DNA of 51,576 nucleotides, taken from Acidilobaceae archaeon (GTDB taxonomy: Archaea; Thermoproteota; Thermoprotei_A; Sulfolobales; Acidilobaceae). The notes below the pieces were generated by a model. It was given only the letters and a program-made list of their open reading frames with translations. It had not been told where the DNA came from and did no database searches. The stretch lies in contig JALWEI010000005.1 in NCBI GenBank assembly GCA_027014125.1, forward strand, positions 1 to 51,576. The letters run 5' to 3'. Of the stretch, positions 24,166-48,581 are shown piece by piece. The translations under genes were made by a program, and so were the position numbers. The first letter of the stretch is position 1; each line of letters starts with the position of its first letter.

Positions 24166-25005
24166 ATGGTAGTAGGGACGCTGAAGAAGCTACTGGGCAT
24201 TGGGGTGGGTAGGGAGTGGGCTAGCGGGGCCGAGGCTCAGGACCCTGCCGACGCCTACGGCTTCCCCGCTGCTGAGATAGACTATGACGACATAATAGCT
24301 AGGCTCCAGGTAGCGAAGATGGAGATTGATAGGATGAAGTACCAGCTCCTGAGCGAGATAGACAAGCTGAACACCAGCCTGCTGGAGGCGGCTAGGAGGA
24401 GGAATATGGATGCTATGGAGGAGTACGCTGCGGAGATAGTGCTCAAGAAGAAGGTGCTGAAGAGCGTGATAATGTACCAGAAGCTGATAAACATAGCGAT
24501 CAACAGGGTGAACGAGGCCAGGAGCATAGAGTCCCTGGTCAAGGCCCTAGCACCGCTAGACTACGCGATGAGGGGCATGAACGAGTTCCTATACACCATG
24601 AGCCCGGAGATAGTGACGAAGCTCAACGCGATCAAGGAGTCCACCGAGAGGCTGATAAGGGGCACCGACATGCTAGCCAACGGCCTGCCACGCGGCAGGG
24701 TCAACCTGGGTATAGACGAGGAGGTGAAGAGGGAGATAGCCAGGGCGCTGAGGGAGGCACAGGTGGAGAGCGACAAGCTCATACCGAACATACCCATACA
24801 GGGGATAGCCAGGGAGAAGATAAAGAAGAGGGACCTCGAGAAGGAGCTGCTGGACTACATAAAGAAGAGCGGGGGTGTAATCAACCTCAAGAAGGCTGCC
24901 GAGGAGCTCGGTGTCGACGTGGCGGAGCTGAAGAAGGCCCTATACAGGCTACAGGAGAAGGGCCTGATCAAGGTCTCCAGGGGCAGGAGCCTACAGGAGG
25001 CCTAG
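24166..25005 (+). CDS. cdvB: CdvB-type ESCRT-III cell division protein
   Basis: 279 residues. Helical ESCRT-III core about residues 38-185 (MEIDRMKYQLLSEIDKLNTS, ALAPLDYAMRGMNEFLYTMS). A Pro-rich segment KLIPNIPIQGI (about 205-215) fits the MIT-interacting motif 2 that recruits CdvC. A C-terminal winged-helix domain (about 224-275, LLDYIKKSGGVINLKKAAEE) is the part that binds CdvA in crenarchaea. It forms the division ring that CdvC remodels. cdvC follows 14 bases downstream. Confidence 0.93.
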   Translation: MVVGTLKKLLGIGVGREWASGAEAQDPADAYGFPAAEIDYDDIIARLQVAKMEIDRMKYQLLSEIDKLNTSLLEAARRRNMDAMEEYAAEIVLKKKVLKSVIMYQKLINIAINRVNEARSIESLVKALAPLDYAMRGMNEFLYTMSPEIVTKLNAIKESTERLIRGTDMLANGLPRGRVNLGIDEEVKREIARALREAQVESDKLIPNIPIQGIAREKIKKRDLEKELLDYIKKSGGVINLKKAAEELGVDVAELKKALYRLQEKGLIKVSRGRSLQEA

Positions 25006-25019
25006 GGGGGATACGGGGG

Positions 25020-26192
25020 ATGATGAAGTCATACTCAATGCTAGAGCTGGAGAGGGTCGTCAGGAGGCACGCCATAGCTGCGATGAAGGCGGAGAGGGAG
25101 GGAGACCTAGAGGCTGCGCTCCACAACTGGAACAGGGCGGTGGAGGCACTCAAGAAGCTGATAGCATACCACCCCGACCACCCCCTGATAGAAATGTACC
25201 GCAACTACCTGGCCCAGTACGAGAGGAGGATCAAGAACCTGGAGTCCCGCCTGATCCCAGTCGGCGAGGGCGACGAGGAGGTACACGTAGAGGTCAGGGA
25301 CGAGAAGGGGGGCAACGGCCGCGCAGGCGGGGGAGAGGCCCCCTCGTTCGCGGTCAAGGAGAAGCCCAACGTGAGGTTCAGCGACATAGCCGGCCTGGAG
25401 GAGGCGAAGGAGGCCATAAGGGAGGCGATAATATACCCGATAAGGAGGCCGGACCTCTTCCCCCTAGGCTGGCCCCGCGGCATACTACTCTACGGCCCCC
25501 CGGGCACGGGGAAGACCATGCTAGCGGCGGCGGTAGCCAACGAGGTTGACGGGGAGTTCCTCTACATAGACGCGGCTAGCATAATGAGCAAGTGGCTGGG
25601 CGAGGGCGAGAAGAACGTGAAGAAGCTATTCGAGTACGCCAGGTCCAGGGCAAGGGAGGGAGTGCCAGTGGTGATATTCATAGACGAGATAGACGCCCTG
25701 CTGGGGGTGCACAGCAACGAGGTGGGCGGAGAGGTCAGGGTGAGGAACCAGTTCCTCAAGGAGATGGACGGCCTCCAGGATAAGAGCAGCAAGCTCCACG
25801 TATACGTGATCGGGGCAACGAACAAGCCCTGGGCCCTGGATGAGCCATTCATAAGGAGGTTCCAGAAGAGGATCTACGTGCCCCTACCCGACAAGGAGGC
25901 GAGGAAGCAGCTGCTCAAGCTGCTAACCAGGAAGATAAAGCTAGCCCCCGACGTGGACCTAGACAAGCTGGCCGACATGCTGGAGGGCTACTCCGGGAGC
26001 GACATAAAGGACATAGTACAGGACGCCTACATGATCACGGTAAAAGAGGTATTCAAGAACGGCGGAGGCGGGGACCCACGCCCCGTGACGATGAGGGACT
26101 TCGAGCTCGTACTCGAGAGGAGGAAGCCCAGCGTGGATCCGAGGACACTGAAGCTCTACGAGGAGTGGAGCCGCAGGTTCAGCGCAGTCTAG
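25020..26192 (+). CDS. cdvC: CdvC (Vps4-like AAA ATPase)
   Basis: 390 residues. N-terminal MIT domain (about 1-78, with EGDLEAALHNWNRAVEALKK). A disordered Gly/Glu linker leads to the AAA core: Walker A GPPGTGKT (159-166), Walker B IFIDEID (219-225), sensor 1 GATNKPW and the Arg-finger region PFIRRFQKRIYVPLP. It disassembles ESCRT-III polymers using ATP. It shares an operon with cdvB. ATGATG at 25020 offers two adjacent starts. Confidence 0.95.
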   Translation: MMKSYSMLELERVVRRHAIAAMKAEREGDLEAALHNWNRAVEALKKLIAYHPDHPLIEMYRNYLAQYERRIKNLESRLIPVGEGDEEVHVEVRDEKGGNGRAGGGEAPSFAVKEKPNVRFSDIAGLEEAKEAIREAIIYPIRRPDLFPLGWPRGILLYGPPGTGKTMLAAAVANEVDGEFLYIDAASIMSKWLGEGEKNVKKLFEYARSRAREGVPVVIFIDEIDALLGVHSNEVGGEVRVRNQFLKEMDGLQDKSSKLHVYVIGATNKPWALDEPFIRRFQKRIYVPLPDKEARKQLLKLLTRKIKLAPDVDLDKLADMLEGYSGSDIKDIVQDAYMITVKEVFKNGGGGDPRPVTMRDFELVLERRKPSVDPRTLKLYEEWSRRFSAV

Positions 26193-26647: not shown

Positions 26648-27623
26648 CAGCCTCCCACCTCCCCCACACGTCCCCGCCACTACTAGTAGCCTCGTCCCCC
26701 ACCGGGTCATCCTGGCCGAGTAGCCCGGCTATGAACGCTGGAGCGCCCCTCTCCAGTCCAGCCCCGTAGCCTCCCTCCAGGACCGCCACGACACGGTACC
26801 TCGAGGCCAGCCCGCCTAGCCTGTGGAAGCTTGCCGAGGTTAGCCTGAGCCTAGCGAAGCTATTATCACCCCTATACGCGTCGAAACCAGCGGAGACGAC
26901 CAGGTACTCGGGGCCCCACTCCTCCAGTACATCCTCCACAAGCCCAAGAGCATCCCTGTACACATCATCACCCGCCCCCGGGGGCAGGTTAATGTTAACC
27001 AGGTTCCCCCCACCACGTAGCCCAGGGTCGCCTGTCCAGGGGTATATCGTCCTATAATCCTGGTGCAGGTCAACATGAAGTATACTAGGCCTCTCCAGGA
27101 GTATCTCCTGCGTCCCATTCCCATGATGCACGTCAAAATCCAGCACCGCTACCCTACCCCTCTCAGCAAGCATATCGGCAAGGAGCGCCGCGGTATTCAC
27201 GAGGCAGAAGCCCTGCGTGGGAGCCCCCAGCCCGGGGCCTGCAACCCCGGCATGGTGGCCCGGTGGGCGGCCAGCTATAAACACTGGGCCCCCATCCACC
27301 AGGTCCAGGGATGCAAGCGCCGCCCCGGCCAGGGCCTGTATGGCCTGCATCGTCCCCGGGGACACATAGGTATCAGGATCAATGAAGAACGTGTCAAGAA
27401 CCATCTCCAACTCGTTCACAAGCTCATCAATATACAGGCTGTCATGAACCCTCCTAAACAACCCCACATCTGCAAGCCTAGGAGAAACACGCTCCACCAC
27501 ACCCCAGAGCCCGTAAGACTTCAACCCGCGAGACAAAAGCTCGAGGCGCACCGGAGACTCGGGGTGGCCAGATCCAGCGGGAGGCTCATGCATCCTAAAG
27601 TACATGTGCCAAACCAGGTACAA
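26634..27623 (-). CDS. HDAC-family (AcuC-like) zinc deacetylase
   Basis: 329 residues. Motifs in order: HPESPVRLELLSRGL near the N-terminus, RPPGHHAG (119-126, catalytic His pair), DFDVHHGNGT (162-171, zinc Asp and His), and SAGFDAYRGD (zinc Asp about 248). All key residues are present, so it should be an active deacetylase, on protein lysines, polyamines or acetoin-type substrates. A badly decayed homologue lies at 35500-36213, also upstream of a tRNA-Arg copy. The start is TTG 27623, which includes the first beta strand (YLVWH). Confidence 0.92.
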   Translation of the reverse strand: MYLVWHMYFRMHEPPAGSGHPESPVRLELLSRGLKSYGLWGVVERVSPRLADVGLFRRVHDSLYIDELVNELEMVLDTFFIDPDTYVSPGTMQAIQALAGAALASLDLVDGGPVFIAGRPPGHHAGVAGPGLGAPTQGFCLVNTAALLADMLAERGRVAVLDFDVHHGNGTQEILLERPSILHVDLHQDYRTIYPWTGDPGLRGGGNLVNINLPPGAGDDVYRDALGLVEDVLEEWGPEYLVVSAGFDAYRGDNSFARLRLTSASFHRLGGLASRYRVVAVLEGGYGAGLERGAPAFIAGLLGQDDPVGDEATSSGGDVWGRWEAVRPR

Positions 27624-27706
27624 CCCCCTAACCCACCCCCACTACACGCAAAGCCCCAGGCAAACAATAATAACACACCCAACAAAACAGCCAAGACAGG
27701 GAGCAA

Positions 27707-27785
27707 GGGCCCGTAGCCTAGCCAGGACAAGGGCGCCGGCCTCCGGAGCCGGAGGTCCCGGGTTCAAATCCCGGCGGGCCCGCCA
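27707..27785 (+). tRNA. tRNA-Arg (anticodon CCG), intact copy
   Basis: A perfect cloverleaf: acceptor GGGCCCG/CGGGCCC, anticodon stem CCGGC/GCCGG with loop CTCCGGA (anticodon CCG, reading CGG), T arm CCGGG-TTCAAAT-CCCGG, discriminator G and encoded CCA. A fragment (29122-29168) and a degenerate full-length relative (36280-36360) lie downstream in the same orientation. Confidence 0.95.
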
Positions 27786-27915
27786 CAAACACCACTAAGT
27801 CATTATTAATCTATGCGGGAAAGGTATAGATAAACGAGACCACAGAACGCGGCCGAGGCTCCTCGCAGGTCTGATAATCTCAGTGGCATTGCAATGAAGT
27901 CATTAGTGCCTTTAT

Positions 27916-28327: not shown

Positions 28328-28771
28328 TTAGGGGAGAACTGCTAGCCAGGGCACCCGCTTGAAGTCCTCGTCAAACGTTAGGATCCTCTCTATACCGTAG
28401 TGCTTGCAGGTGAGTGCTATTATAGCGTCGCTGGGTAGTAGCCTGTAGTTGAGTAGCGTTTCGTAGAGCTCCTTCTCTGTATAGATGCTTTGGACTAGTC
28501 TTATGTCGAGCCTTTTGATCAGCTCTTCGACAGCGTGTACGACCTCCCCTGGATAACCGTGTTTCCTTATCCATTTCCTGGCAGAGTAAGCTCCCTTGAC
28601 GCCGTGCCTGTGCTCTAGGTAGTGGAGTGTCGAGGTGTAGATTAGCTCGTTGTGCACAATCGTGTCTACCACGTACTCTCCCGGGTTGTCATCGAGTAGT
28701 GTTAGCGCTTCCTCTGTGAGGCTGGTCTTATGGAGTATGTGATAGAGAATATTTGTATCTAGGAGGATCAT
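28328..28771 (-). CDS. vapC: VapC toxin (PIN-domain ribonuclease)
   Basis: About 147 residues. PIN-domain acidic residues are visible: MILLDTNILYH (first Asp), VHNELIY (Glu), LPSDAIIAL (Asp) and ILTFDEDFKRV (last acidic pair). It should cleave RNA when free of antitoxin. The start ATG 28771 overlaps the vapB stop as ATGA, so the two are translationally coupled; an ATG three codons earlier is possible. Confidence 0.92.
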   Translation of the reverse strand: MILLDTNILYHILHKTSLTEEALTLLDDNPGEYVVDTIVHNELIYTSTLHYLEHRHGVKGAYSARKWIRKHGYPGEVVHAVEELIKRLDIRLVQSIYTEKELYETLLNYRLLPSDAIIALTCKHYGIERILTFDEDFKRVPWLAVLP

Positions 28772-28965
28772 TGCCGCCATGCCTCCTCAAGGTACCTCTC
28801 CAGCTCCTCCTCGCTAGACTCTCCTAGTATACCGACGAGATCCTTTAGCCTCTCCCGGACACTCCTCTCAATCTTTATTCTAACCTCCTCGCCCTCCCTT
28901 AGATCCAATGGCTCCAGCGGCCTAAGCACACCCCTCTCATACTTGACCCTGACTACTTTTGACAA
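28768..28965 (-). CDS. vapB: VapB-type antitoxin
   Basis: 65 residues from TTG 28965. KVVRVKYERGVLRPLEPLDL followed by REGEEVRIKIE is the standard start of the archaeal AF2212/DUF104-type antitoxin family, usually upstream of VapC. The C-terminal helix (SSEEELERYLEEAWRQ) is the likely toxin-binding part. It overlaps vapC by 4 bases. Confidence 0.88.
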   Translation of the reverse strand: MSKVVRVKYERGVLRPLEPLDLREGEEVRIKIERSVRERLKDLVGILGESSEEELERYLEEAWRQ

Positions 28966-29327
28966 CCGTGTCTCCCTCCTTACATGTGGATAATGGGGCC
29001 TCTAAGCTTTTCCCTCCTCGTATGTTGCATTCTTATCGGACCTGAGATTCAAGGCGGATTCTCATGTTTGGGTGAATGTTGCATTCACCCATGGATCCGT
29101 GAAACCTGGGTATTTAAGTGTTGGCCTCCGGAGCCGCAGGGGTCCCCAGGTTCAAGCTCGCGGCGACCTGTCACTAGATACCCCCATATATGGCCTTCCT
29201 ATTCTAAAGAGCTAAAGAGTAGGATCTATAGTACTAAGTCAAAGCTACAATCTAAGTTAGTTTTTACTTCAGAACAAGAATTACAGAATCACTTTGAGCC
29301 GCGGCACCCGTTTGAAGTCCTCACCTG
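28966..29327. other. Gene-free stretch holding a hairpin and decayed repeats
   Basis: This 362-base interval contains no convincing gene. It holds two copies of ATGTTGCATTC (about 29021 and 29076), a perfect 9-bp hairpin at 29070-29090 (GGGTGAATG and CATTCACCC around TTG), a tRNA-Arg fragment (29122-29168) and the start of a vapC remnant (29296-29362). It reads as a scar left by duplication or element insertion. Confidence 0.6.
29122..29168 (+). pseudogene. tRNA-Arg(CCG) fragment
   Basis: GGCCTCCGGAGCC matches the anticodon arm of the intact tRNA-Arg (27707-27785) exactly, followed by a recognisable but damaged T arm (AGGTTCAAGCTCGCGGCG against GGGTTCAAATCCCGGCG). The 5' half (acceptor and D arm) is absent and the 3' acceptor strand is not complementary to anything nearby, so it cannot be a working tRNA. 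Confidence 0.75.
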
Positions 29328-29362
29328 ATGCTAGCATCTCCTATACTTCTATGCCTGCAAGT
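29296..29362 (-). pseudogene. 3' fragment of a vapC-like gene
   Basis: Read on the minus strand, this gives LAGIEV, a stop, then EMLASGEDFKRVPRL. This aligns with the last part of the intact VapC (YGIERILTFDEDFKRVPWL). The DNA match to 28340-28410 includes CACCCG, TTGAAGTCCTC and CTGCA blocks. The order tRNA-Arg fragment then vapC 3' end mirrors the intact order at 27707-28400, as if a second copy had collapsed. Confidence 0.7.
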
Positions 29363-29762: not shown

Positions 29763-30178
29763 TTCTAATATAATTTTCTTGTAAATATATTAAATTTACT
29801 ATTAAATATTACTTATATGACACTACTTATATGTCTTAAGATATTAAAAAGTGTATTAAGGTGAGTAAAATAATGTCTTCGATTACCTTCAAATGAGTTT
29901 AGTAATTGTAGTTTTAAATCTTTTTCACTACTTAACCTGAAGCTGTTAGTCATAAATCTTAATCAGCGATTATCATGTAAGACACCGTGGAAGTTTGTAT
30001 GTTGTACCAATTCATGAGCAAATGTAGCCTTGGTTTTATGGCATTGGTCTCTAGGTTGGGCTACCATGGAGTGCGCAATCCCTGGCCACTATCCGGTTGA
30101 AGATAATCAATAGGGAGTAAGTTTTTATGCTTTAATGCCTTAAGTTTCTCAGCGAGCCATCAATCATCAAAAGTAATC
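29763..30178. other. A+T-rich intergenic region
   Basis: A 416-base gap without a gene. Two direct copies of ACTTATATG (29811-29819 and 29824-29832) sit in very A/T-rich DNA. Short T-tracts (for example near 29930) could end transcription of the plus-strand frame or of the HerA operon, whose last codon is at 30179. I see no tRNA or clear structured RNA. Confidence 0.4.
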
Positions 30179-31588
30179 TTAGATAATGTCCATTACATCA
30201 CTTAGATTCTTAGCTATAGGCAGGCTGTTCTCGCTAATTGTCCTTCTTTTCAGGCGTTCAAGTAATGGCCTAGCCCGCTTATTATAGAGTAGCTTTAAGG
30301 CCTCAAGCACTACCTTGTCTATGGCATCGTCGCCGGTTAGAAATTGTTGTCGAACAAACATTTCTCTACCACGTCTTTCTAACTCTAATATTCCTAAGCG
30401 TTCGAGCCGCTTAAACTCACGAGTATTGACTGTTTTGAAGCTACTTAACTCTCGAAGTTCAGAGTAACTGAGCCATCTTTGCTCTCTCGCTAGGACATAG
30501 ACATGCGCAATTGTTGACGGGGCTGTGCCTGCGAGGATTAGTACAAGTCGTATCAAGATTTCTAAGGCCCTCTGACTTGGAATAGTTACAACTTCCTTTT
30601 TACGCTCGTGCCCATCAGTTCTATCTTTCAAGGTATTAGGGATACTACCTTCAATAATATAATGGTGGCTAGGTTCATGATGAATGCTTTGTATAGCGTT
30701 CGTCTGTAACTCGATCATGGACAAGATGTGCTCTAAAAGGGATCGGTCAATGCTTCTTAGTTGAAAGTTCATCTTAGAATAAGCATTTGGCGTATAGCCT
30801 AGATGGATTGTTTGGCGTTTTCTCACCTTTACCTTTCTAACATATATACCATCATAGAACAATGCTTCGCCAACGTCTAGCTTAGGTACAACGTCTTCTA
30901 CTTCTCTAGGATTCAGGGGAAGCAGCTCTTTGTACACACGTAGATCAGCTGGATGCATGACCTTGTGCAACACGTAGTACTCTGCTTGTGATAGAACATC
31001 CTTGTCTACCTTCGCACTCCGTTGTGAAACCATTATCAAGCCTAGTCCACGTTTTCTTCCACGCAGTGCTATACGAACTAACACATTCTTTACAGAACTA
31101 GAATACCCTTGAGGAATGAATTCATGTGCTTCTTCTATTACAAGAAATAATGGACGTCTATACAACTTTGAGCTTCTCCATACTTCTTCTAAGAAGGCAT
31201 TGAGATATTCGCTGTAATCATCGACTATGAATTCCGATAAATCTATAACAGCGGGAAGATAGATATCAAGGAGTGCTCTTGCAAGCCGAGATGCCTGCTC
31301 GCTATCACTGATATCAAGTGGTATATCAGCCTTCTCATCTGCTGACACTATAAGGGTATCATAATTCTCTCGAAGGGTCCAATATTCTCCGTCGATATCA
31401 AGCACTATAACTGGTATCCCTTTCATGAGAAGCTCTTCTATAAATACAGCAGCAGTATTAGTCTTGCCTGAACCTCTTACACCAAGTATTGCAATAGCCT
31501 TTCCATAGATATTTTCAAGCCTTATACCATCGTGTTCAACAAATATCCCCAGAACATTACTAGTTATATTGTTTTTGTTCTTTTCCAC
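30179..31588 (-). CDS. HerA/DUF87-type ATPase
   Basis: 469 residues from GTG 31588 (GAGGG upstream). ATPase motifs: Walker A GVRGSGKT (36-43), VLDIDGEYW (62-70), Walker B LFLVIEEAHEF (147-157), then ALRGRKRGLGLIMVSQRSAK (sensor/Arg region typical of HerA/FtsK helicases) and LSQAEYYVLHKV. The C-terminal third (about 330-469) carries a predicted winged helix (YSELRELSSFKTVNTREFKR). HerA-family pumps move DNA; they also occur in viruses, plasmids and defence systems. There is no NurA nuclease gene here, so it is not the standard HerA-NurA repair pair. It is the last gene of the A/T-rich operon. Confidence 0.88.
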   Translation of the reverse strand: MEKNKNNITSNVLGIFVEHDGIRLENIYGKAIAILGVRGSGKTNTAAVFIEELLMKGIPVIVLDIDGEYWTLRENYDTLIVSADEKADIPLDISDSEQASRLARALLDIYLPAVIDLSEFIVDDYSEYLNAFLEEVWRSSKLYRRPLFLVIEEAHEFIPQGYSSSVKNVLVRIALRGRKRGLGLIMVSQRSAKVDKDVLSQAEYYVLHKVMHPADLRVYKELLPLNPREVEDVVPKLDVGEALFYDGIYVRKVKVRKRQTIHLGYTPNAYSKMNFQLRSIDRSLLEHILSMIELQTNAIQSIHHEPSHHYIIEGSIPNTLKDRTDGHERKKEVVTIPSQRALEILIRLVLILAGTAPSTIAHVYVLAREQRWLSYSELRELSSFKTVNTREFKRLERLGILELERRGREMFVRQQFLTGDDAIDKVVLEALKLLYNKRARPLLERLKRRTISENSLPIAKNLSDVMDII

Positions 31589-32138
31589 TAAGCATCCCTC
31601 TTACAAGTTCCTCTCCTTTTCTCGTGATATAGTAATTATTAGACTCTATATCTCGTGCTATATATCCCTTCTTATTAACAGCATTATTAAAGTCTCTGCT
31701 AAGATTAGCAGGAACCTTCAGTCCAACAGCCCTAAAGTAATCCTTAACCTCCTTAGTTGAGAATTTTTTCTTATTCTCATAGTGCTTCATATAATAAGCA
31801 AATACTGTTATCCATTCAGCATTAGACTTAGGCTCATTACTTAACATATTAACGAAATCACTTAGACTAGTCTCTTCTTTATCCTTACTGGCTTTAATGT
31901 CTCCTAATGTTTGGCTAAGTTCGGGAACAACCGCAGGAGTAGATGTTTCTAATTTTCTACCTGCATGGGAAGAAACAACACCTATACCACGACTACCATA
32001 AAACGTTAAAAGATATCTATAGGTTTCTATGAAGGCATCCTTCTTGTACTCTGTGGGCAAGGTATTCACTATGTCAATAGCTAGAGAGGCTAGTTTCTTC
32101 AATCTCTCCGCTATTTCCTTGATTTCGTCTTCTTGCAT
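31560..32138 (-). CDS. Winged-helix-type protein B2 of the HerA operon
   Basis: About 192 residues from ATG 32138 (GGAGG 8 bases upstream; GTG 32144 also possible). N-terminal helical part with KKDAFIETYRYLLTFYG, a polar linker, then EWITVFAYYMKHYENKKKFS and a helix-turn-helix-like tail: KVPANLSRDFNNAVNKKGYI, NNYYITRKGEELV. It is clearly paralogous to the protein at 33511-34042 (same DAFIETY, EWITVFAYY and PAN-SRD blocks). Function unknown. It overlaps the HerA gene start by 29 bases and follows the 32141-32575 gene, so the genes are tightly coupled. Confidence 0.75.
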   Translation of the reverse strand: MQEDEIKEIAERLKKLASLAIDIVNTLPTEYKKDAFIETYRYLLTFYGSRGIGVVSSHAGRKLETSTPAVVPELSQTLGDIKASKDKEETSLSDFVNMLSNEPKSNAEWITVFAYYMKHYENKKKFSTKEVKDYFRAVGLKVPANLSRDFNNAVNKKGYIARDIESNNYYITRKGEELVRGMLSGKEQKQYN

Positions 32139-32140
32139 AC

Positions 32141-32575
32141 TCACTTCCTCCTGTTATTCCCTGTACACTTTCTTTTAGAATTTATTATTCTCTTAGCAAT
32201 ATTCTCGATAAGGGAAGTATTTATTGAATAATAGCCGCGTGCCTTCGGTATAACATATTTTTCCTTAGCAAGCCGTGATAGTTCTGAACGTACGGTATTA
32301 TAATTTATTCCTAGCTTCTCTGAGAGTTCTTTAACAGACACTGTATCGGTTTCACGCCATCCAATAATACTCATAGCCTTGTAGCCTAAAAGCCCTATGA
32401 GTATCTTATCTGCTGCACTGACCTTACACTCACTGAGGAGAGAACCTATAACTAGTTCCTTTGTACTCTCATCTAAGCCTATAAATCCCTCTAGAGCATT
32501 CTCCATAAGTTCCTCTACTTTCTTATTCGTGTTTACACGTAGTCGAGCAAACTTTATCTCTTCAAATTCAGCCAA
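32141..32575 (-). CDS. Winged-helix protein A2 of the HerA operon
   Basis: About 144 residues from TTG 32575; GGAGGTGG lies 4 bases before it, which decides this start over the upstream TTG 32596. The C-terminal half is a winged helix: TVSVKELSEKLGINYNTVRS, ELSRLAKEKYVIPKARGYYS. The N-terminal half is helical with DKILIGLLGYKAMSII. It has the same layout as the protein at 34032-34544. It probably binds DNA; whether it regulates the operon or serves as a structural subunit is unknown. Confidence 0.75.
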   Translation of the reverse strand: MAEFEEIKFARLRVNTNKKVEELMENALEGFIGLDESTKELVIGSLLSECKVSAADKILIGLLGYKAMSIIGWRETDTVSVKELSEKLGINYNTVRSELSRLAKEKYVIPKARGYYSINTSLIENIAKRIINSKRKCTGNNRRK

Positions 32576-32615
32576 GGTACCACCTCCACACCCCAATATA
32601 TTTATAAAAATAGTT

Positions 32616-33449
32616 CTAGAGGGTTATTAATTTTTTAATTGTATCGTGGATGAACTTTCTACCTTTGCTCGTTATCTCATAGCACCCTTTCCTACCACCA
32701 ACTTTAATTATAAGATTTTCCTTTGCAAGCTCACGAAGTTCACGATAAATGGTCCCCGGCTTAGCCTCTGGAATGGTATTAATAATGTCCTTAGGTGATA
32801 GACAACTATTTTTAGATGACATCAGCGTAAGAAGTATAAGGTCTTTGATCTTTAACTCATCCACAAGTGGCACAAGCTTGTCGTCTATGTTCTCTACTAC
32901 CCTAAGAATGTAAGTAGATATTGAAAATGGGGAGAATATATTCTCAATAACTTCTTCACTAAGGTTACCATATATGCGTAGAAACTCTTCCAGTAACCAT
33001 GTTGCGGTCTCAATTATATGGCGTGCATCCCATTGCGAGATAGGTGTTTGATTAGCGTGTGCGGCATCCCTACTATTTCTGAGAGTATATATAGAATAGT
33101 ATGCTACCTCTAACATAATTTTCTTCTCCTTGCCTTTGTTTCCTTTTCCTTTGTGACTAAGGGTACTATTAATTTTGTCGATTGTTGTCTTCACCTTAGA
33201 AGATTCAACGGGTACACCCTCGATACTTGATACTATCTTGATAAACTCTTCGACAAACTTTCCAGCATCAACTCCAAGCTTGTCAAACATACCAAGCCTG
33301 TAATCATTAATTAACTCAATGTACCGATCGTAAAGATATTTACCTTTATCTGAAGCTACATCCTCTAGCTTATGCCGAAGACTTTCAGGAAAGAGACTTT
33401 GACGAATGAGCTTTCTAACTCTGCTAGTACTTGTCTCAGTTTTATCCAC
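32616..33449 (-). CDS. HEPN-like domain fused to a winged helix (HerA operon, gene C)
   Basis: About 277 residues from GTG 33449, supported by GAGGTGGAG just upstream; an earlier TTG (33479) is possible. The N-terminal two-thirds are helical. YYSIYTLRNSRDAAHANQ contains R-N-S-R-D-A-A-H, an Rx6H arrangement like the catalytic motif of HEPN ribonucleases (Arg about 124, His about 131 in this numbering). ARHIIETATWLLEEFLRIYG follows, as in apea-type HEPN helices. The C-terminal 75 residues form a winged helix (LSPKDIINTIPEAKPGTIYR, ELRELAKENLIIKVGGRKGC). The HEPN assignment is based on pattern only. Confidence 0.65.
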   Translation of the reverse strand: MDKTETSTSRVRKLIRQSLFPESLRHKLEDVASDKGKYLYDRYIELINDYRLGMFDKLGVDAGKFVEEFIKIVSSIEGVPVESSKVKTTIDKINSTLSHKGKGNKGKEKKIMLEVAYYSIYTLRNSRDAAHANQTPISQWDARHIIETATWLLEEFLRIYGNLSEEVIENIFSPFSISTYILRVVENIDDKLVPLVDELKIKDLILLTLMSSKNSCLSPKDIINTIPEAKPGTIYRELRELAKENLIIKVGGRKGCYEITSKGRKFIHDTIKKLITL

Positions 33450-33510
33450 TTTCTCCACCTCTTTATAAAATTTATACAAAAGACGTTAGCCGCTTCCCCT
33501 CTTCAACAAT

Positions 33511-34042
33511 TTAGTTAGCACTACTGGTTTGGATTAGGCTTTTTCTTAACTCAGAAGCTCCACCAATTAACATCTCTTCCACAAGAGCCTCTCCGCTTCT
33601 GGTTATGTAATATTTTTTTTGTCTCTTTATCAAATGCGATATAACCGTGTCTCACGGCATCTTTCAGGTCACGAGAAATATTGGCTGGTATTTTGCGTCC
33701 AGTTTGCTTGAAGTATTCTACTATTTCTTTTTTATCAAAAAAGTTATTATTTTCGTAATATTTTATATAATAGGCAAACACTGTAATCCATTCTTTATTA
33801 GCCTTAGGTTCTCTCTTTAATTTATTAATAAACTCGGGAAGGGATAATTTATCTATTATCGTCTCACTGGAGGGAGCTTCTCGTGGAGTCACCCTAGGCT
33901 GTACATAAATCGATAGTAGGTGTTTATAAGTTTCTATAAATGCGTCTTTCCTGTATTCTTCGGGCACGTTTTTAACAGCTTCACTTGATATATTAATTAA
34001 TGTTTCTAATAGTTCCTTTAATGCTTCAAAGTTATTTTTCAT
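33511..34042 (-). CDS. Winged-helix-type protein B1, frameshifted at an A8 run
   Basis: The frame from ATG 34042 runs to a stop at 33551 (163 residues). Up to about residue 143 it matches the paralogue at 31560-32138 (RKDAFIETYKHLLSIY, EWITVFAYYIKYYENNNFFD, KIPANISRDLKDAVRHGYIA). At 33612-33619 the coding strand has eight A in a row. Skipping one A restores KKYYITRSGEALVEEML, matching the paralogue's NNYYITRKGEELVRGML, and ends at a TAA at 33511. So this is either a one-base frameshift (pseudogene or sequence error) or a slippage-dependent gene. Its ATG overlaps the end of the 34032-34544 gene. Confidence 0.7.
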
Positions 34043-34544
34043 TTCTTACACCCCTATTCTTATATTTCTCCTTAACTTTATTACTCTTTAAGCTAATTTC
34101 TTTTAAATAATCTAGTGCTTTAGATAGGCTATAAATTGTATAAACACCCTTTGATGTTTTCTTCACTATACCTTCTTTGTGTAGCTCAGAAAGTCGTGCT
34201 GCAATAGCCTTAGGGTCCTTCCCTAGAATGCTAGCAATCTGCTCAACTGTAGTTGTTGGCTCGGTGCTCTTTACTACTTCCTTACCCTTTAATTCATTTA
34301 TCTTGTAAGCTAAATAACGTGAAAGAATGACTAGAAATACTTTTTCCTTATCTCCTATGTCTGTTTTTACGATTTCTACGGTACCATCTTGATATACCTG
34401 GACAAATTTACTAGCTACTGAAAGAATCTCTTTAACTAACTCAATCTCTCCACTAGTTGTTATAACAAATCTCTCAATTAGATTGTCTAATTCACCCCCA
34501 GCTTTATCTATCTCCACTGTGTCACACCCTAGAGTACGCCACAT
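34032..34544 (-). CDS. Winged-helix protein A1, first gene of the HerA operon
   Basis: About 170 residues from ATG 34544. This start is chosen because a TATA box (CTATATTAAAG, about 34564-34575) lies 25 bases upstream, predicting a leaderless mRNA; the frame upstream of it lies in promoter DNA. Helical N-terminal half (GGELDNLIERFVITTSGEIE, KVFLVILSRYLAYKINEL) and C-terminal winged helix (TTTVEQIASILGKDPKAIAA, RLSELHKEGIVKKTSKGVYT). It shares layout with the protein at 32141-32575. The tail is Lys/Asn-rich. Confidence 0.75.
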   Translation of the reverse strand: MWRTLGCDTVEIDKAGGELDNLIERFVITTSGEIELVKEILSVASKFVQVYQDGTVEIVKTDIGDKEKVFLVILSRYLAYKINELKGKEVVKSTEPTTTVEQIASILGKDPKAIAARLSELHKEGIVKKTSKGVYTIYSLSKALDYLKEISLKSNKVKEKYKNRGVRNEK

Positions 34545-34823
34545 GACATATATTCCTACAGCTTTAATATAGATTATGTATACCAATTACGATTAATAGT
34601 ACAATGATAGTCTATTGAATCGTATTACTAATTGCTAACTACTATATAGAGTATTAGTGTCTACTAGAGTAACATATCGTGTAGCTACATTTAAAGATTA
34701 ACATGGCAAACAGAGTTAGATATGTATTACACGTGACATTTTAACATACATGCTGATAAAGAGCGCTATAGCTTAAAATATAGAGGTCAAGTACAGCATC
34801 TAGAGTTCAACCCTTAAACACTA
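34545..34823. promoter_or_regulatory. A+T-rich control region upstream of the HerA operon
   Basis: The minus-strand box CTATATTAAAG at about 34564-34575 is well placed for the operon. The remaining interval is A/T-rich with no gene. It marks the sharp boundary where base composition returns to the G+C-rich host type at about 34,825. Confidence 0.5.
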
Positions 34824-35499: not shown

Positions 35500-36213
35500 G
35501 CCACCCCCACTCCCTACCGCCACTCTCCGTAGCCCGTCTCCGTAGTCTCCCTCTAGGAATACTATATTCTTCATCCTGGACGCCATCAACCCTATCCTGT
35601 TGAAGGAGGATGAAGTTGCCCTTACATTGGGTATAGGGTCCTGTAGTCCTGGTGGATATCAACATGGAGTATACCCGGACGGCCCAGCAGGATCTCCTGG
35701 GTCCCATTACCATGATGCACGTCAAAGTCTAGCACAGCAACCCTACCCCTCTCAGACAGCAAGACAGCCAGGAGGCGTCAGTATTGACAAGGCAGAAGAC
35801 CTAGGTAGGAGCATTGAAAGCCGGGCCAGAAACCCCCGCATGGTGCCCCGGAGGCCGACCAGCAATAAACACCAGAGCCTCCGTGGCACGATCCACTGCA
35901 TACAACACAAACCCAGCCAGGACCTCGTGAGCCTGCTGGGTACCAGGCGACATATAGTATCAGGATCAATAAAGCAGTGGTCCAGAGCAGATTCAAGGTC
36001 CTGCCTCAAGTCAAACAAATACTCCTCACTATGAACCCAACCATACAAATCTAATCCAGCAAGTCTGGGAAAGACCCTATTAACCCCCATCCCACAACCC
36101 GGAAACCCTGAAGACCTCCCTCAAAATCCTAAGCCTCTCAGGCCTCTCAGGATGATAAACCCCGAGGAGGCTCATATATCATAAAATACATGTGCTAAAC
36201 CAGATCCAAACCC
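35500..36213 (-). pseudogene. HDAC-family deacetylase remnant
   Basis: This is homologous to the intact deacetylase at 26634-27623 at DNA level along most of its length, including the His/Asp catalytic block (plus strand near 35700-35740, CCATTACCATGATGCACGTC against CCATTCCCATGATGCACGTC). The 5' end reads LDLV, stop, HMYFMIYEPPRG against YLVWHMYFRMHEPPAG. Further stops and frame changes follow. About 200 bases that encode the segment before the C-terminal LEGGYGAG motif are missing. It sits upstream of the degenerate tRNA-Arg, copying the order of the intact pair. Confidence 0.85.
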
Positions 36214-36279
36214 AACATCATACACCCAATGAGAAGAATAAAACACGCCAAGGGAAAAACATAACCCCCCGGGGAAGGA

Positions 36280-36360
36280 GGGCCCGTAGCCTAGCCAGGA
36301 CAAGGGCGCCGGTCTCCGGAGCCGGGAGGCTCCTGGGTTCAAATCCCGGCCGGTCCGCCA
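36280..36360 (+). tRNA. Degenerate tRNA-Arg(CCG), probably a pseudo-tRNA
   Basis: 81 bases against 79 in the intact gene. The first 33 bases and the anticodon loop CTCCGGA are identical to the copy at 27707. Differences weaken it: an acceptor strand of CCGGTCC gives one C-C mismatch and one G-T pair, the anticodon stem has a T-G pair, the variable loop is two bases longer (GAGGCTC) and the T stem has a T-G pair. CCA is still encoded. Some function cannot be excluded. Flanking DNA on both sides also resembles that of the intact copy. Confidence 0.75.
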
Positions 36361-36407
36361 CCACATACCACAAAACCATCATAAATCTATGAAGAGAATT
36401 GCATTAG

Positions 36408-37158: not shown

Positions 37159-38076
37159 TTGAAGAGCAAGAAAGGTGGCAGGAAGAGGACGAGGACTAGT
37201 AGTTTTGGTGTGCAGGGCAGGATAGCGCACGACTCCACCCCGTTCTACTCTAGGCGGCTGTACCGGGAGCTTCCCCTGCCTAGGCCTTCGCCTAAGGACC
37301 TTGTGGAGAACCCTGTTCCGGGGGAGTTTCTGGATAGGGTTGTGCTTGGTGATGCGAGGGAGGTGTTGAGGAGGCTACCAGACAATAGTGCGCACCTTAT
37401 GGTGACCTCGCCGCCCTATAACGTGGGGAAGGAGTACGATGAGGACCTAACGCTGGGGGAGTACCTCGGCTTCATAGAGGAGGTTATGAGGGAGGTCTAC
37501 CGGGTCCTGGTGTGGGGTGGGCGTGTCTGCTTCAACGTGGCGAACCTGGGGAGGAGGCCTTACATACCCCTCCACGCCTACCTTATAGAGCGCTTCGAGA
37601 GGATAGGCTTCCTCCCCAGGGGCGAGATCATCTGGGACAAGGGGGAGGCGGTATCCGGCTCTAGCACGGCCTGGGGCACGTGGATGAGCGCCGTCAACCC
37701 TATACTCAGGGACCAGCACGAGTATATCATTGTATTGAGCAAGGGAGACTACAAGAGGAGGAAGGCGCCAGGCAAGAAAGATACTATAACCCGGGACGAG
37801 TTCCTGGAGTACACGAGGAGCGTGTGGAGGTTCCCCCCGGAGAGCGCCAGGAGGGTCGGGCACCCGGCACCCTTCCCCGTGGAGCTGCCGTACAGGTGTA
37901 TACAGCTCTACACCTTCACAGGAGACATAGTCCTAGACCCCTTCGCAGGCTCAGGCACAACCTGCGTCGCAGCAGTGAAGACGGACAGGCACTACATCTG
38001 CATAGACACAAACCCAGAGTACACGAGGATAGCCGAGCACAGGATCAGGGAGGCGAGAAGTCACGCCCGCCTATAG
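37159..38076 (+). CDS. DNA amino-methyltransferase (probably N4-cytosine, beta class)
   Basis: 305 residues. The catalytic motif TSPPYNVG (83-90) precedes the SAM-binding motif LDPFAGSGTTCVAAV (about 259-273), the beta-class order. SPPY rather than NPPY favours N4-cytosine methylation, though N6-adenine cannot be excluded. The start is TTG 37159 after a strong GGTGGAAGGAGA. No restriction endonuclease gene is adjacent, so it is an orphan enzyme or its partner is elsewhere. It may protect DNA or act in regulation. G/C-rich composition suggests long residence in the genome. Confidence 0.9.
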   Translation: MKSKKGGRKRTRTSSFGVQGRIAHDSTPFYSRRLYRELPLPRPSPKDLVENPVPGEFLDRVVLGDAREVLRRLPDNSAHLMVTSPPYNVGKEYDEDLTLGEYLGFIEEVMREVYRVLVWGGRVCFNVANLGRRPYIPLHAYLIERFERIGFLPRGEIIWDKGEAVSGSSTAWGTWMSAVNPILRDQHEYIIVLSKGDYKRRKAPGKKDTITRDEFLEYTRSVWRFPPESARRVGHPAPFPVELPYRCIQLYTFTGDIVLDPFAGSGTTCVAAVKTDRHYICIDTNPEYTRIAEHRIREARSHARL

Positions 38077-45599: not shown

Positions 45600-48581
45600 A
45601 TGGGAGACATCTTGTCTAGGATACGTGACAGGAGTCGAAGAAGTTATAGAAAGAAACACGCTATAAACATAGATTCTTTCATTGAGGATATCGGAAGCGA
45701 CGCTGTAAATATTCTTATCAATTCCGTCAGAGAGATGGACTATAATCTAGCGCCTTACGCAGTATTAGCAATCATTGCATCTATACTCCCCGAGGCACTT
45801 GCGATATCATTTCTTAGCAAGCTTTTAGGCGCATCTATGGCCAAAACCGTTATTAGTATAGTTAGTAGATTCAGGCAGAAGAATGAACGTGATCTTAATG
45901 AGCTAGCATCGAAGCTTCGCATAGAACTGGGTTTAACCAGCGAGGAAGAGGAGAAGTTATTAGATAAGCTGGAGTCGTTTGACTATAATAAATATGTCGA
46001 GACCCTGGGGAAGGAGAATACCGCTATTATACTCGCACTTGCGCCTGTATTAAAGGAGCTTAAGGCCAAGCTTAAGACTGTTGAAGGCAAGGTAGAGAGG
46101 CTCGAGCTTTTACTCTCCGTTAGGTATGAACGGGATCTCGAGAGCCTTGGCGTGTATCTCGGCCTTCAGCCGAGAATCCTAGCTAAAGGTGTGGTTAGGT
46201 ATGAGAGGTTGGAGAAACTTGCGGCCAGGATAGTGGAGGATGTGAAGCGTGGCATGACTGTTATAGTAGCTGGGCCTCCCGGTATAGGGAAGACGGTCCT
46301 ACTCTACCTTGCCACCCAGAAATTGGTTAATGAAGGGTGGAAGGCGGCGATAACCTCGCTTACGAACCCCACCGGGCTCGAGCCGAATTCATTCATACTC
46401 GTTCCAGAGCTGAATAGGGAGTACAAGTGGCTTCTAGCAAGGACCTCAATAGCTGCTCTCTCTAGTGCTAGGAGCCACGATTTGAGGAACCTGCTATCGG
46501 GCTCCGGGGAGGAGAGAAGGCTGGTCTGGATGCGCTGGGACTCCTACCTTGCCAGGGAATCTACCCCGAGTTGGAGCCGTGTCATTGTTGTCGAGCTCAC
46601 TTCCAGCTTGTATGATAAGAGTCATCTTATGGCGATAGCCCGCCAGACGTTCGAGTATATCACTGGAAGGATCCCGGGTGAAGAGGTCTTGTCGGTTATC
46701 GAGGAGGCATTGGGTGTGGTAGAGCCTACGCCCTTGTGCGCGGCTTTAATAGGCGAGAGGGTCGCGAAGGGGGTTAGCCCTACACGTGCCACCAGGTCCA
46801 GGGTTCAATGTCTAGAGTATATCACCGATATTCTGGCTCATAGTAGCGATGAGGAGCTACTGGGGCTAGCCATAGTAAGCTATGCGGCTAACCATTCGAT
46901 ACACGAGCTGCTCTTGAAGAGGATCGCCTCTGCTATCAACGCGGATTTCAGGAGTATAGTAACGTTCTTGGAGAGGAGGATAGGAGGAGAGTATATGGCG
47001 CCGCACCCCTTATGGCTCGACTCCATACAGAGGCTGCTGGATAAGCGCCCGAGCCTACAAGTCCTGGTAGGGGAGGCGTTATCTCGCGTGCAGGAAGCCT
47101 TCGCGGATGTGCTAGCAAAGCTCGAAAAATCGCCTGTAAGCGTGAGGGAGGCAGTTATATCATCGACGGTAGAGAATTTTCCCCAGAAAGCGCTGGAGAC
47201 GGCGTACAAGTGGAGGGACCTAGGCTTAGATACGGCTAGCCTAATACTTATCGGGGAGGCGACGGCGCGTCTCCTCAAGCCAGAATTGCTGAACGAGTTT
47301 ATCGCGAACACCGGGTTAGACCTCCGCGACATAGATCCGGGTGTAGCGCCTAGGCTATGGCTCTATTACTATGAGAAACAGGCGGGCAAGGAGGGTTACG
47401 GCGAAGCTAGGTGCGATGGAGAATACACTAGAGCCAGGGTTCTCTACAGGCTCGGCGCAATAAACGAGGCTCTTGAAACGGTTAATCACATACTAACGCT
47501 AGAGGGCGAATGCACGCCGGGGACCATAGCAAGAGCCCTGCTTTTGAAGGGGATAATACTACAGTCGGTGAACAAGCCCGCGGAGGCCGTAGAGGCCCTG
47601 AGGAATGTTGTTAAAGTAATTAGCAAGGATGATCCTAGAGGGCTGGTTGCTGCAAGGGCCCTCATGTACCTTGGCAGGGCATTGCATGCCCTTGGCAGGT
47701 ATAGAGAAGCGCTAGAAACCTACATAGAGGCCGAAGAGGTGTTCAGGGACGCTAGCGCTTATGAGAGTCGGGAGATGTATGATGCTGCATGGCTCCATGT
47801 CTATAAGGGCAGCGCGCTTCTCTGGCTAGCCCGCTACGAGGAGGCGTTGCGGGAATTCGAAATAGCGGAGGATAAGTTCCGAAGGCTCCAAATGATCATA
47901 GCCCATGGCACTGTTGATCCTGCTAGACGGGGTAGAGAGCATCTAGAGTCGTTTGGCGTAACTACTGGAGGTGGAGGGCCGGAGATCGAGTCAAAACTCG
48001 CAATTGCATTGATGAATAAGGCTTTAGTACTCATTAGCATTGGTGAATACCTGGAAGCGATAAAAACGATTGAGGATGCTGAGGACATAGCAAACAGTAT
48101 AGTTAATGTTCAAAGACTTAGAGAACATATAGTGAAACTAGTGCTTATCCTAATGTATAAAGCATATATCTACTGGAGAACGTGGAAAGCTGGCATTAAA
48201 AGTATAGACATATATCTAGCACAGGAAATCGCCGAGGACTCGGTAAATTACTACCAGAAATTAATAACGGAAGGAAGAGTAGATCAGCTGCAAGGATACG
48301 CTAGAGCGCTCCTAGTAGCCGGGCTCATATCCAAGGACCTCGGCGACATAGAAAAGGCGTCCTATTACTTTAAGAAGACTATTGATACGGTTCGCGGTCT
48401 TATAGAAAACCGGATATACTGGATGTTGGAGTTGGGCATTATAGCGGCATATCACCTGGGCTCATATAGTGAATTATGCTACTTTTATTCATTGGCTGTT
48501 AAGGAAAGTATAAATATGGAGTTTTTTGTGCCTAGAGAGATTATTAGTAAATGCAGTGATGTATGTAGTAATCTAATATGA
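45600..48581 (+). CDS. STAND-type NTPase with coiled coil and TPR-like repeats
   Basis: 993 residues. An N-terminal part (1-95) has a hydrophobic block (APYAVLAIIASILPEALAIS, about 51-80) that could sit in a membrane. A coiled coil spans about 95-175. A P-loop NTPase follows with Walker A VAGPPGIGKTVLLYL (222-236); Walker B is not canonical (VIVVELTSS is the nearest). Helical repeats fill about 430-980, with clear TPR-like units such as ALMYLGRALHALGRYREALE and GSALLWLARYEEALREFEIA. This sensor-switch layout is that of STAND proteins, many of which act in antiviral defence or signalling. No known effector enzyme domain is fused. The 5' and 3' ends are A/T-richer than the host. Confidence 0.8.
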   Translation: MGDILSRIRDRSRRSYRKKHAINIDSFIEDIGSDAVNILINSVREMDYNLAPYAVLAIIASILPEALAISFLSKLLGASMAKTVISIVSRFRQKNERDLNELASKLRIELGLTSEEEEKLLDKLESFDYNKYVETLGKENTAIILALAPVLKELKAKLKTVEGKVERLELLLSVRYERDLESLGVYLGLQPRILAKGVVRYERLEKLAARIVEDVKRGMTVIVAGPPGIGKTVLLYLATQKLVNEGWKAAITSLTNPTGLEPNSFILVPELNREYKWLLARTSIAALSSARSHDLRNLLSGSGEERRLVWMRWDSYLARESTPSWSRVIVVELTSSLYDKSHLMAIARQTFEYITGRIPGEEVLSVIEEALGVVEPTPLCAALIGERVAKGVSPTRATRSRVQCLEYITDILAHSSDEELLGLAIVSYAANHSIHELLLKRIASAINADFRSIVTFLERRIGGEYMAPHPLWLDSIQRLLDKRPSLQVLVGEALSRVQEAFADVLAKLEKSPVSVREAVISSTVENFPQKALETAYKWRDLGLDTASLILIGEATARLLKPELLNEFIANTGLDLRDIDPGVAPRLWLYYYEKQAGKEGYGEARCDGEYTRARVLYRLGAINEALETVNHILTLEGECTPGTIARALLLKGIILQSVNKPAEAVEALRNVVKVISKDDPRGLVAARALMYLGRALHALGRYREALETYIEAEEVFRDASAYESREMYDAAWLHVYKGSALLWLARYEEALREFEIAEDKFRRLQMIIAHGTVDPARRGREHLESFGVTTGGGGPEIESKLAIALMNKALVLISIGEYLEAIKTIEDAEDIANSIVNVQRLREHIVKLVLILMYKAYIYWRTWKAGIKSIDIYLAQEIAEDSVNYYQKLITEGRVDQLQGYARALLVAGLISKDLGDIEKASYYFKKTIDTVRGLIENRIYWMLELGIIAAYHLGSYSELCYFYSLAVKESINMEFFVPREIISKCSDVCSNLI

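Follow-up and report, generated by a model that had tools for sequence, protein, structure and literature searches.

The window analysed here is a 51,576-nt stretch from an Acidilobaceae archaeon (GCA_027014125.1, contig JALWEI010000005.1, positions 1-51,576, forward strand), whose genome (G000, 1.82 Mb) has a completeness of 99.8%. Six minus-strand open reading frames (ORFs) at 30179-34586 form a module with the 5'->3' order A1, B1, C, A2, B2 and HerA, all of them found at about the places given by an earlier reading of the sequence (hereafter, the original prediction). The GC content of the module is 37.8%, compared with 56.9% for the remaining window.

Specifically, A1 (34032-34544, minus strand, as are all genes of the module) is a 170-aa A-family winged-helix protein with ArsR/HTH_24-type winged helix-turn-helix (wHTH) matches, and A2 (32141-32575/96) is an A-family winged-helix protein as well. 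The proposed relationship between A1 and A2 was not seen as a one-to-one BLAST alignment, but both fall within one wider A family. B2 (31560-32144) consists of N-terminal helices and a C-terminal winged helix, and B1, the second B-family winged-helix protein, is 43% identical to it and has the blocks DAFIETY, EWITVFAYY and PAN-SRD in common with it, as the original prediction had noted. That prediction placed B1 at 33511-34042; homology indeed covers the full span, but the reading frame changes within a run of eight Ts (T8, 33613-33620): the ORF is uninterrupted only over 33551-34042, and the homology to B2 goes on in the other frame to 33511. C (32616-33449) combines a helical HEPN-like domain with a C-terminal PadR-type winged helix, and the last gene (30179-31588) encodes a HerA-type DUF87 ATPase with no HAS barrel and a C-terminal extension of ~210 aa. 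Starts had been said to overlap stops throughout; overlaps are present at three of the five junctions (A1/B1, A2/B2 and B2/HerA), but short gaps separate B1 from C and C from A2. A TATA-like box, TATATTAAAG, lies on the minus strand at 34571-34562, ~23 nt upstream of the A1 start at 34544, and, judged from sequence only, fits a candidate leaderless promoter for A1.

A search for C in 197 genomes of the order found one other full-length copy, in a metagenome-assembled genome (MAG) labelled Pyrodictiaceae (G149, JALSNP010000090). The genes are arranged there as A1'-C'-A2'-B2'-HerA', with B1 absent, ~1.3 kb from a tRNA-Thr gene. The two copies are 79% identical at the DNA level over 30174-33475, from the end of HerA to the start of C, and the similarity ends there. 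The A1 and A1' proteins are only 47% identical, which argues for a separate history of the operon head. The ratios of nonsynonymous to synonymous substitution rates (dN/dS) between the copies, obtained by the NG86 method, were 0.17 for HerA, 0.28 for B2, 0.28 for A2 and 0.21 for C, indicating that C-A2-B2-HerA is under purifying selection. On these comparisons, C-A2-B2-HerA is a conserved, horizontally transferred core, and A1-B1 a separately evolving head.

The HEPN-like protein and the HerA-type ATPase

The description of C as an Rx6H helical part followed by a winged helix held up (R124-N-SRDAA-H131; PadR-like PF03551, E=4.5e-4). R124-N125-x5-H131 and E67 are invariant in four sequences, namely C, C', a C-like protein of genome G375 and a plasmid protein of Natronomonas pharaonis. 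PMC3710099 defines HEPN proteins by an Rx4-6H motif in which R is followed by a polar residue, and by a conserved acidic residue further upstream; C has both, with N following R in its Rx6H and E67 upstream. By motif and homology, C is HEPN-like, as had been suggested. Unlike the known HEPN toxins and effectors, the C family fits no catalogued HEPN family, is not accompanied by an MNT antitoxin, and has its HEPN part joined either with a PadR-like wHTH or with an A domain. The latter fusion is found in the Natronomonas protein, encoded on plasmid PL131, in which the HEPN part (tblastn, E=8e-9) is joined to an A-family domain (blastp against A2, E=6e-7) instead of the PadR winged helix, and it links the C and A families. 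The C-like gene of G375 (E=4e-18) overlaps a B gene. In addition, Halorubrum plasmid pCBA1229 seems to encode a fusion of a B-type winged helix with a HEPN-like region (RANANAH), as judged by eye only. Matches to the wHTH of C alone, which occurred in many genomes, were dismissed as PadR-like regulators. A possible resemblance to Abi_C was considered; PF14355 gave no match in 21 relatives, a result made uninformative by controls that were silent too.

The module HerA has a DUF87 core (PF01935, E=1.3e-15) with Walker A, GVRGSGKT, at residue 36. Because only 35 residues precede Walker A, compared with 160 in the HerA found beside NurA at the f24 loci (Walker A at residue 161), the module protein lacks a HAS barrel. 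It scored 86 bits against the NCBIfam HerA equivalog, for which the cut-off is 970, and its C-terminal extension looks winged-helix-like by eye only. Family f11, which we take to be Sulfolobaceae, has its nearest relatives: ATPases of 250 aa that stand alone, are ~50% identical to it and have no A, B or C neighbours. The next nearest are DUF87 proteins of haloarchaeal plasmids (33-36% identity). The module protein resembles such HAS-less plasmid DUF87 or arCOG00280-type ATPases in its core (~35% identity), short N-terminus and long C-terminal extension. It differs from the haloarchaeal plasmid proteins in that theirs have a coiled-coil C-terminal half, usually no detectable A or B, and no adjoining HEPN gene.

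The module shares a DUF87/HerA-superfamily RecA-fold motor with the HerA-NurA pair, but its HerA has no HAS barrel and carries a C-terminal extension of its own, and no NurA was found among the six proteins (Pfam) or among the neighbouring ORFs scanned, in keeping with the original prediction. A HerA-type motor combined with a toxic or nuclease partner is also known from HerA-SIR2, HerA-DUF4297 and MADS (mad8), and the HerA core matched PADLOC HerA models (E down to 1e-28) and mad8 (2e-20). Unlike in those systems, the partners here are HEPN and wHTH proteins: neither SIR2 nor DUF4297 was matched by the six module proteins in PADLOC or Pfam, and from the mad1-mad8 set only the mad8-like ATPase and a marginal wHTH match to mad1 (0.017) were detected.

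Recurrence of the A and B families beside HerA-type motors

Relatives of A and B were found far outside the order. B2 matched B proteins of Halorubrum (3e-7) and H. hubeiense (1e-7) in tblastn/blastp searches, and B2 and B2' scored 36-38 bits against the Halorubrum B, the best of 100 shuffles reaching 27. Haloarchaeal relatives of A2 had blastp E values from 2e-8 (Haloarcula) to 3e-6; hhalign of the A alignment against a single haloarchaeal A protein gave no significant score, and blastp with closer family members did. A B profile made from the window, MAG and haloarchaeal sequences was run on 200 genomes of the phylum (E<=1e-3) and matched 18 of them, the window genome included, adding 17 new Thermoproteota loci. 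Since profile scores are circular for the sequences used in building, these 17 loci served as the independent test, and the A profiles had been made before the ORFs next to them were inspected. An A gene lay directly beside B on the same strand, within 40 nt, at 10 of the 17. Among 284 ORFs, every A match with E<1e-4 was beside B or one gene beyond; the exception, at E=1.6e-4, was the B match itself. The adjacency of A and B at the new loci is thus far beyond chance.

The B2 model (AlphaFold, shallow alignments, as for C) had a predicted local distance difference test (pLDDT) score of 55, with only the winged helix at residues 108-186 confident (pLDDT 70-91), and gave no significant PDB match. 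A also resembled DUF4194/JetB, Nse1, Csa3 and AbiEi, and B1 resembled JetC; these matches were weak, lay largely within the winged helix and were not used. No description of either family or of the gene set was found in the titles and abstracts searched, subscription literature being outside their coverage. Both HEPN effectors and HerA motors accompanied by toxic partners have been described before; A and B appear to be two undescribed winged-helix families, and the module looks like a DNA-handling system, possibly a defensive one, that has not been described either.

A and B adjoin HerA-type motors in three settings, namely the island described here, haloarchaeal plasmids and NurA-HerA operons. 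On both plasmid pSTJ003 of H. hubeiense and the SYNS111 plasmid of Haloarcula, an operon of A2-like, B-like and A1-like genes is convergent with HerA, and a further A-like gene lies two genes upstream of HerA; the A1-like match is weak by itself (E=0.002). Other B loci have putative effectors as neighbours. Locus L118 reads A-B-[B-type wHTH + PLD-like] and L117 reads B-[wHTH + PLD-like], both matching the PADLOC candidate PDC-S05 (4e-18 and 2e-12, respectively); at L106, A-B is near a McrB-like AAA+ protein, and at L115, B is beside a HEPN gene. Many B loci (L116, L119-L122) are close to neither A nor HerA, and A and B are missing from most DUF87 plasmids, so the linkage of A/B to HerA is recurrent and not obligatory. 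The original prediction of a novel system would have failed had A, B and C homologues never co-occurred, and they do co-occur elsewhere, with HerA.

The NurA-HerA setting comprises the orders gatE-B-A-A'-[143 aa]-NurA-HerA-CdvB-like-CdvC (f24), gatD-gatE-X-A-A'-[158 aa]-NurA-HerA-NurA-HerA (f29) and X-A-NurA-HerA (f42), in which X is a small gene with no match to the B profile; for f24 and f42, the matches taken as NurA fall short of the Pfam cut-off. At L133:952-8221 of genome G245, two NurA-HerA pairs in tandem come immediately after gatDE and A-family genes, on their downstream side. The module had been set apart from the standard HerA repair pair, which is right as far as its lack of NurA goes, but A and B adjoin NurA-HerA elsewhere. 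Because they occur both there and on haloarchaeal plasmids, repair pair and novel system do not split cleanly.

These operons could mean that A and B are general HerA accessories and that the island copy is a transferred offshoot, minus NurA, of housekeeping DNA-end processing or chromosome handling. We consider this improbable for the module itself, as its HerA belongs to the HAS-less branch and not to the NurA-linked one, and as the HEPN partner, the AT-richness and the patchy distribution are unlike a housekeeping gene set.

The small wHTH proteins also suggest a regulatory or selfish cluster of the toxin-antitoxin kind, in which A and B would be regulators or antitoxins of C, with HerA a co-transcribed passenger. 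Such proteins are many in the module, HEPN proteins are described in PMC3710099 as common toxins, and the HEPN-A fusion would suit this idea. So would pCBA1229, where four A copies are scattered among unrelated genes. On that plasmid (L085:14874-15647 and L080:836-7065), a stretch of 8 kb holds the four A genes, a B gene and the apparent B-wHTH/HEPN-like fusion, with unrelated genes in between. However, in each of the two known copies the HerA gene overlaps B2, HerA is under the strongest constraint, and the linkage of A/B to HerA recurs without HEPN; we hold this reading to be quite improbable.

Genomic setting and proposed function

The AT-rich tract is flanked by two plus-strand tRNA-Arg(CCG) genes, an intact one at 27707-27785 and another at 36280-36360. 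The second is part of a duplication (70% identity) of the 3' part of an HDAC-family gene together with the tRNA, 27040-27815 against 35629-36391; in the second copy the HDAC gene has decayed to a pseudogene, and the tRNA still scores as intact. A degenerate tRNA-Arg(CCG) 3' fragment, the mark of a tRNA-targeted integrated element, is present at 29123-29165 (plus strand, 43 nt, 79% identical to the intact 27707-27785). The stretch from the tRNA-Arg gene to the module contains a PIN-domain VapC-like toxin gene (28328-28780) and a 68-nt piece resembling its 3' end (29297-29362), and this piece and the tRNA fragment are scars of an earlier insertion beside the module. Acquisition, as first proposed, is supported by the AT-richness, the tRNA-Arg surroundings and the 79% DNA identity to the copy of a different family.

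This setting raises the question of whether the module maintains or transfers a plasmid or integrated element. HerA would then pump or segregate DNA, A and B would bind a centromere- or oriT-like site, and the HEPN protein would be an addiction toxin or an accessory. The scar beside the module, the tyrosine integrase gene adjoining the G375 copy and the plasmid location of the haloarchaeal relatives of HerA, A, B and HEPN-A are consistent with such a role. So is PMC4158269, in which the arCOG00280 HerA-like ATPases of archaeal dark-matter islands were annotated as potential pumps of viral DNA. Against this, the module contains no ParA, replication protein, relaxase or integrase (Pfam detected no ParA/ParB-type partition protein among the six proteins and no integrase among the flanking ORFs scanned), both crenarchaeal copies are on contigs with ordinary host genes, and A and B also recur in chromosomal NurA-HerA operons. 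In addition, scans of IMG/VR viral contigs for HerA, B and C returned no relatives, and tblastn against phages gave only distant HerA matches and chance B matches; a viral origin was rejected on these results. We hold maintenance or transfer to be unlikely, though still to be reckoned with.

Several other features of the window were observed. A cdvB-like gene (with a winged-helix C-terminus) and cdvC/Vps4 (24166-26192) are ~4 kb from the HerA gene, probably by coincidence, since none are seen in the visible flank of the MAG copy, although NurA-HerA at the f24 loci does have Cdv neighbours. An apparently solitary N6/N4 DNA methyltransferase gene (37159-38076; PF01555, 9e-45) lies downstream of tRNA-Arg copy 2, and a gene in a locally AT-rich stretch (45600-48581) encodes a 993-aa AAA_16/nSTAND-like NTPase with TPR repeats, an architecture typical of conflict-system STAND proteins. 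The window starts with a near-perfect 122-bp palindrome (1-122, 98% inverted repeat), likely a contig-end artefact.

The gene set is conserved, has been horizontally transferred and is under purifying selection, and its A/B-HerA and HEPN/PLD neighbourhoods recur; module parts are not confined to crenarchaeal islands. Synteny shows the link between A/B and HerA, and the function of the module is inferred. We tentatively favour a mobile anti-element defence module, in which A and B would be DNA-recognition adaptors, HerA a sensor or motor and C a HEPN effector. A and B may bind particular DNA, such as a DNA end or an element in the course of invasion or replication, and form a complex with HerA, loading or gating the HAS-less motor. 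ATP-driven translocation or remodelling by HerA would then disrupt the bound DNA, release the HEPN protein, or both. The released C, carrying its own winged helix, would act as a ribonuclease and cut RNA, so that growth or element expression would be halted.

Some results weigh against defence. The AlphaFold model of C has a pLDDT of 44 and an all-helical N-terminal half, with no Foldseek match below E=0.3 and no significant PDB match, and no HEPN match for C was obtained in Pfam, NCBIfam or PADLOC. C was found in only three thermoproteotal genomes, and no DNA-acting nuclease domain was recognised in the module. Meanwhile, most DUF87 relatives (the f11 ATPases and most haloarchaeal plasmids listed) have no detectable A or B, and A and B also occur in the NurA-HerA/Cdv contexts, which look like housekeeping ones and in which a defence role is improbable.

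A broader proposal, which we regard as doubtful but worth stating, is that A and B, as a pair of winged-helix proteins for DNA recognition, form an undescribed archaea-wide HerA accessory complex that works with NurA-HerA in chromosome maintenance, and that mobile elements captured it to drive a HAS-less HerA, swapping HEPN and PLD-like effectors as a new immune family.

HerA-type motors have a central part in the repair of DNA in archaea and in several immune systems of bacteria, and how they are loaded or aimed in archaea is poorly known. The recurrence of A and B by such motors in crenarchaea, on haloarchaeal plasmids and in NurA-HerA operons makes them concrete candidates for the missing HerA partner. 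The HEPN-linked variant, if true, would be an archaeal DNA-motor/RNase system of six genes, or of a four-gene core, and the significance would be larger still if A and B prove to be general partners of HerA.

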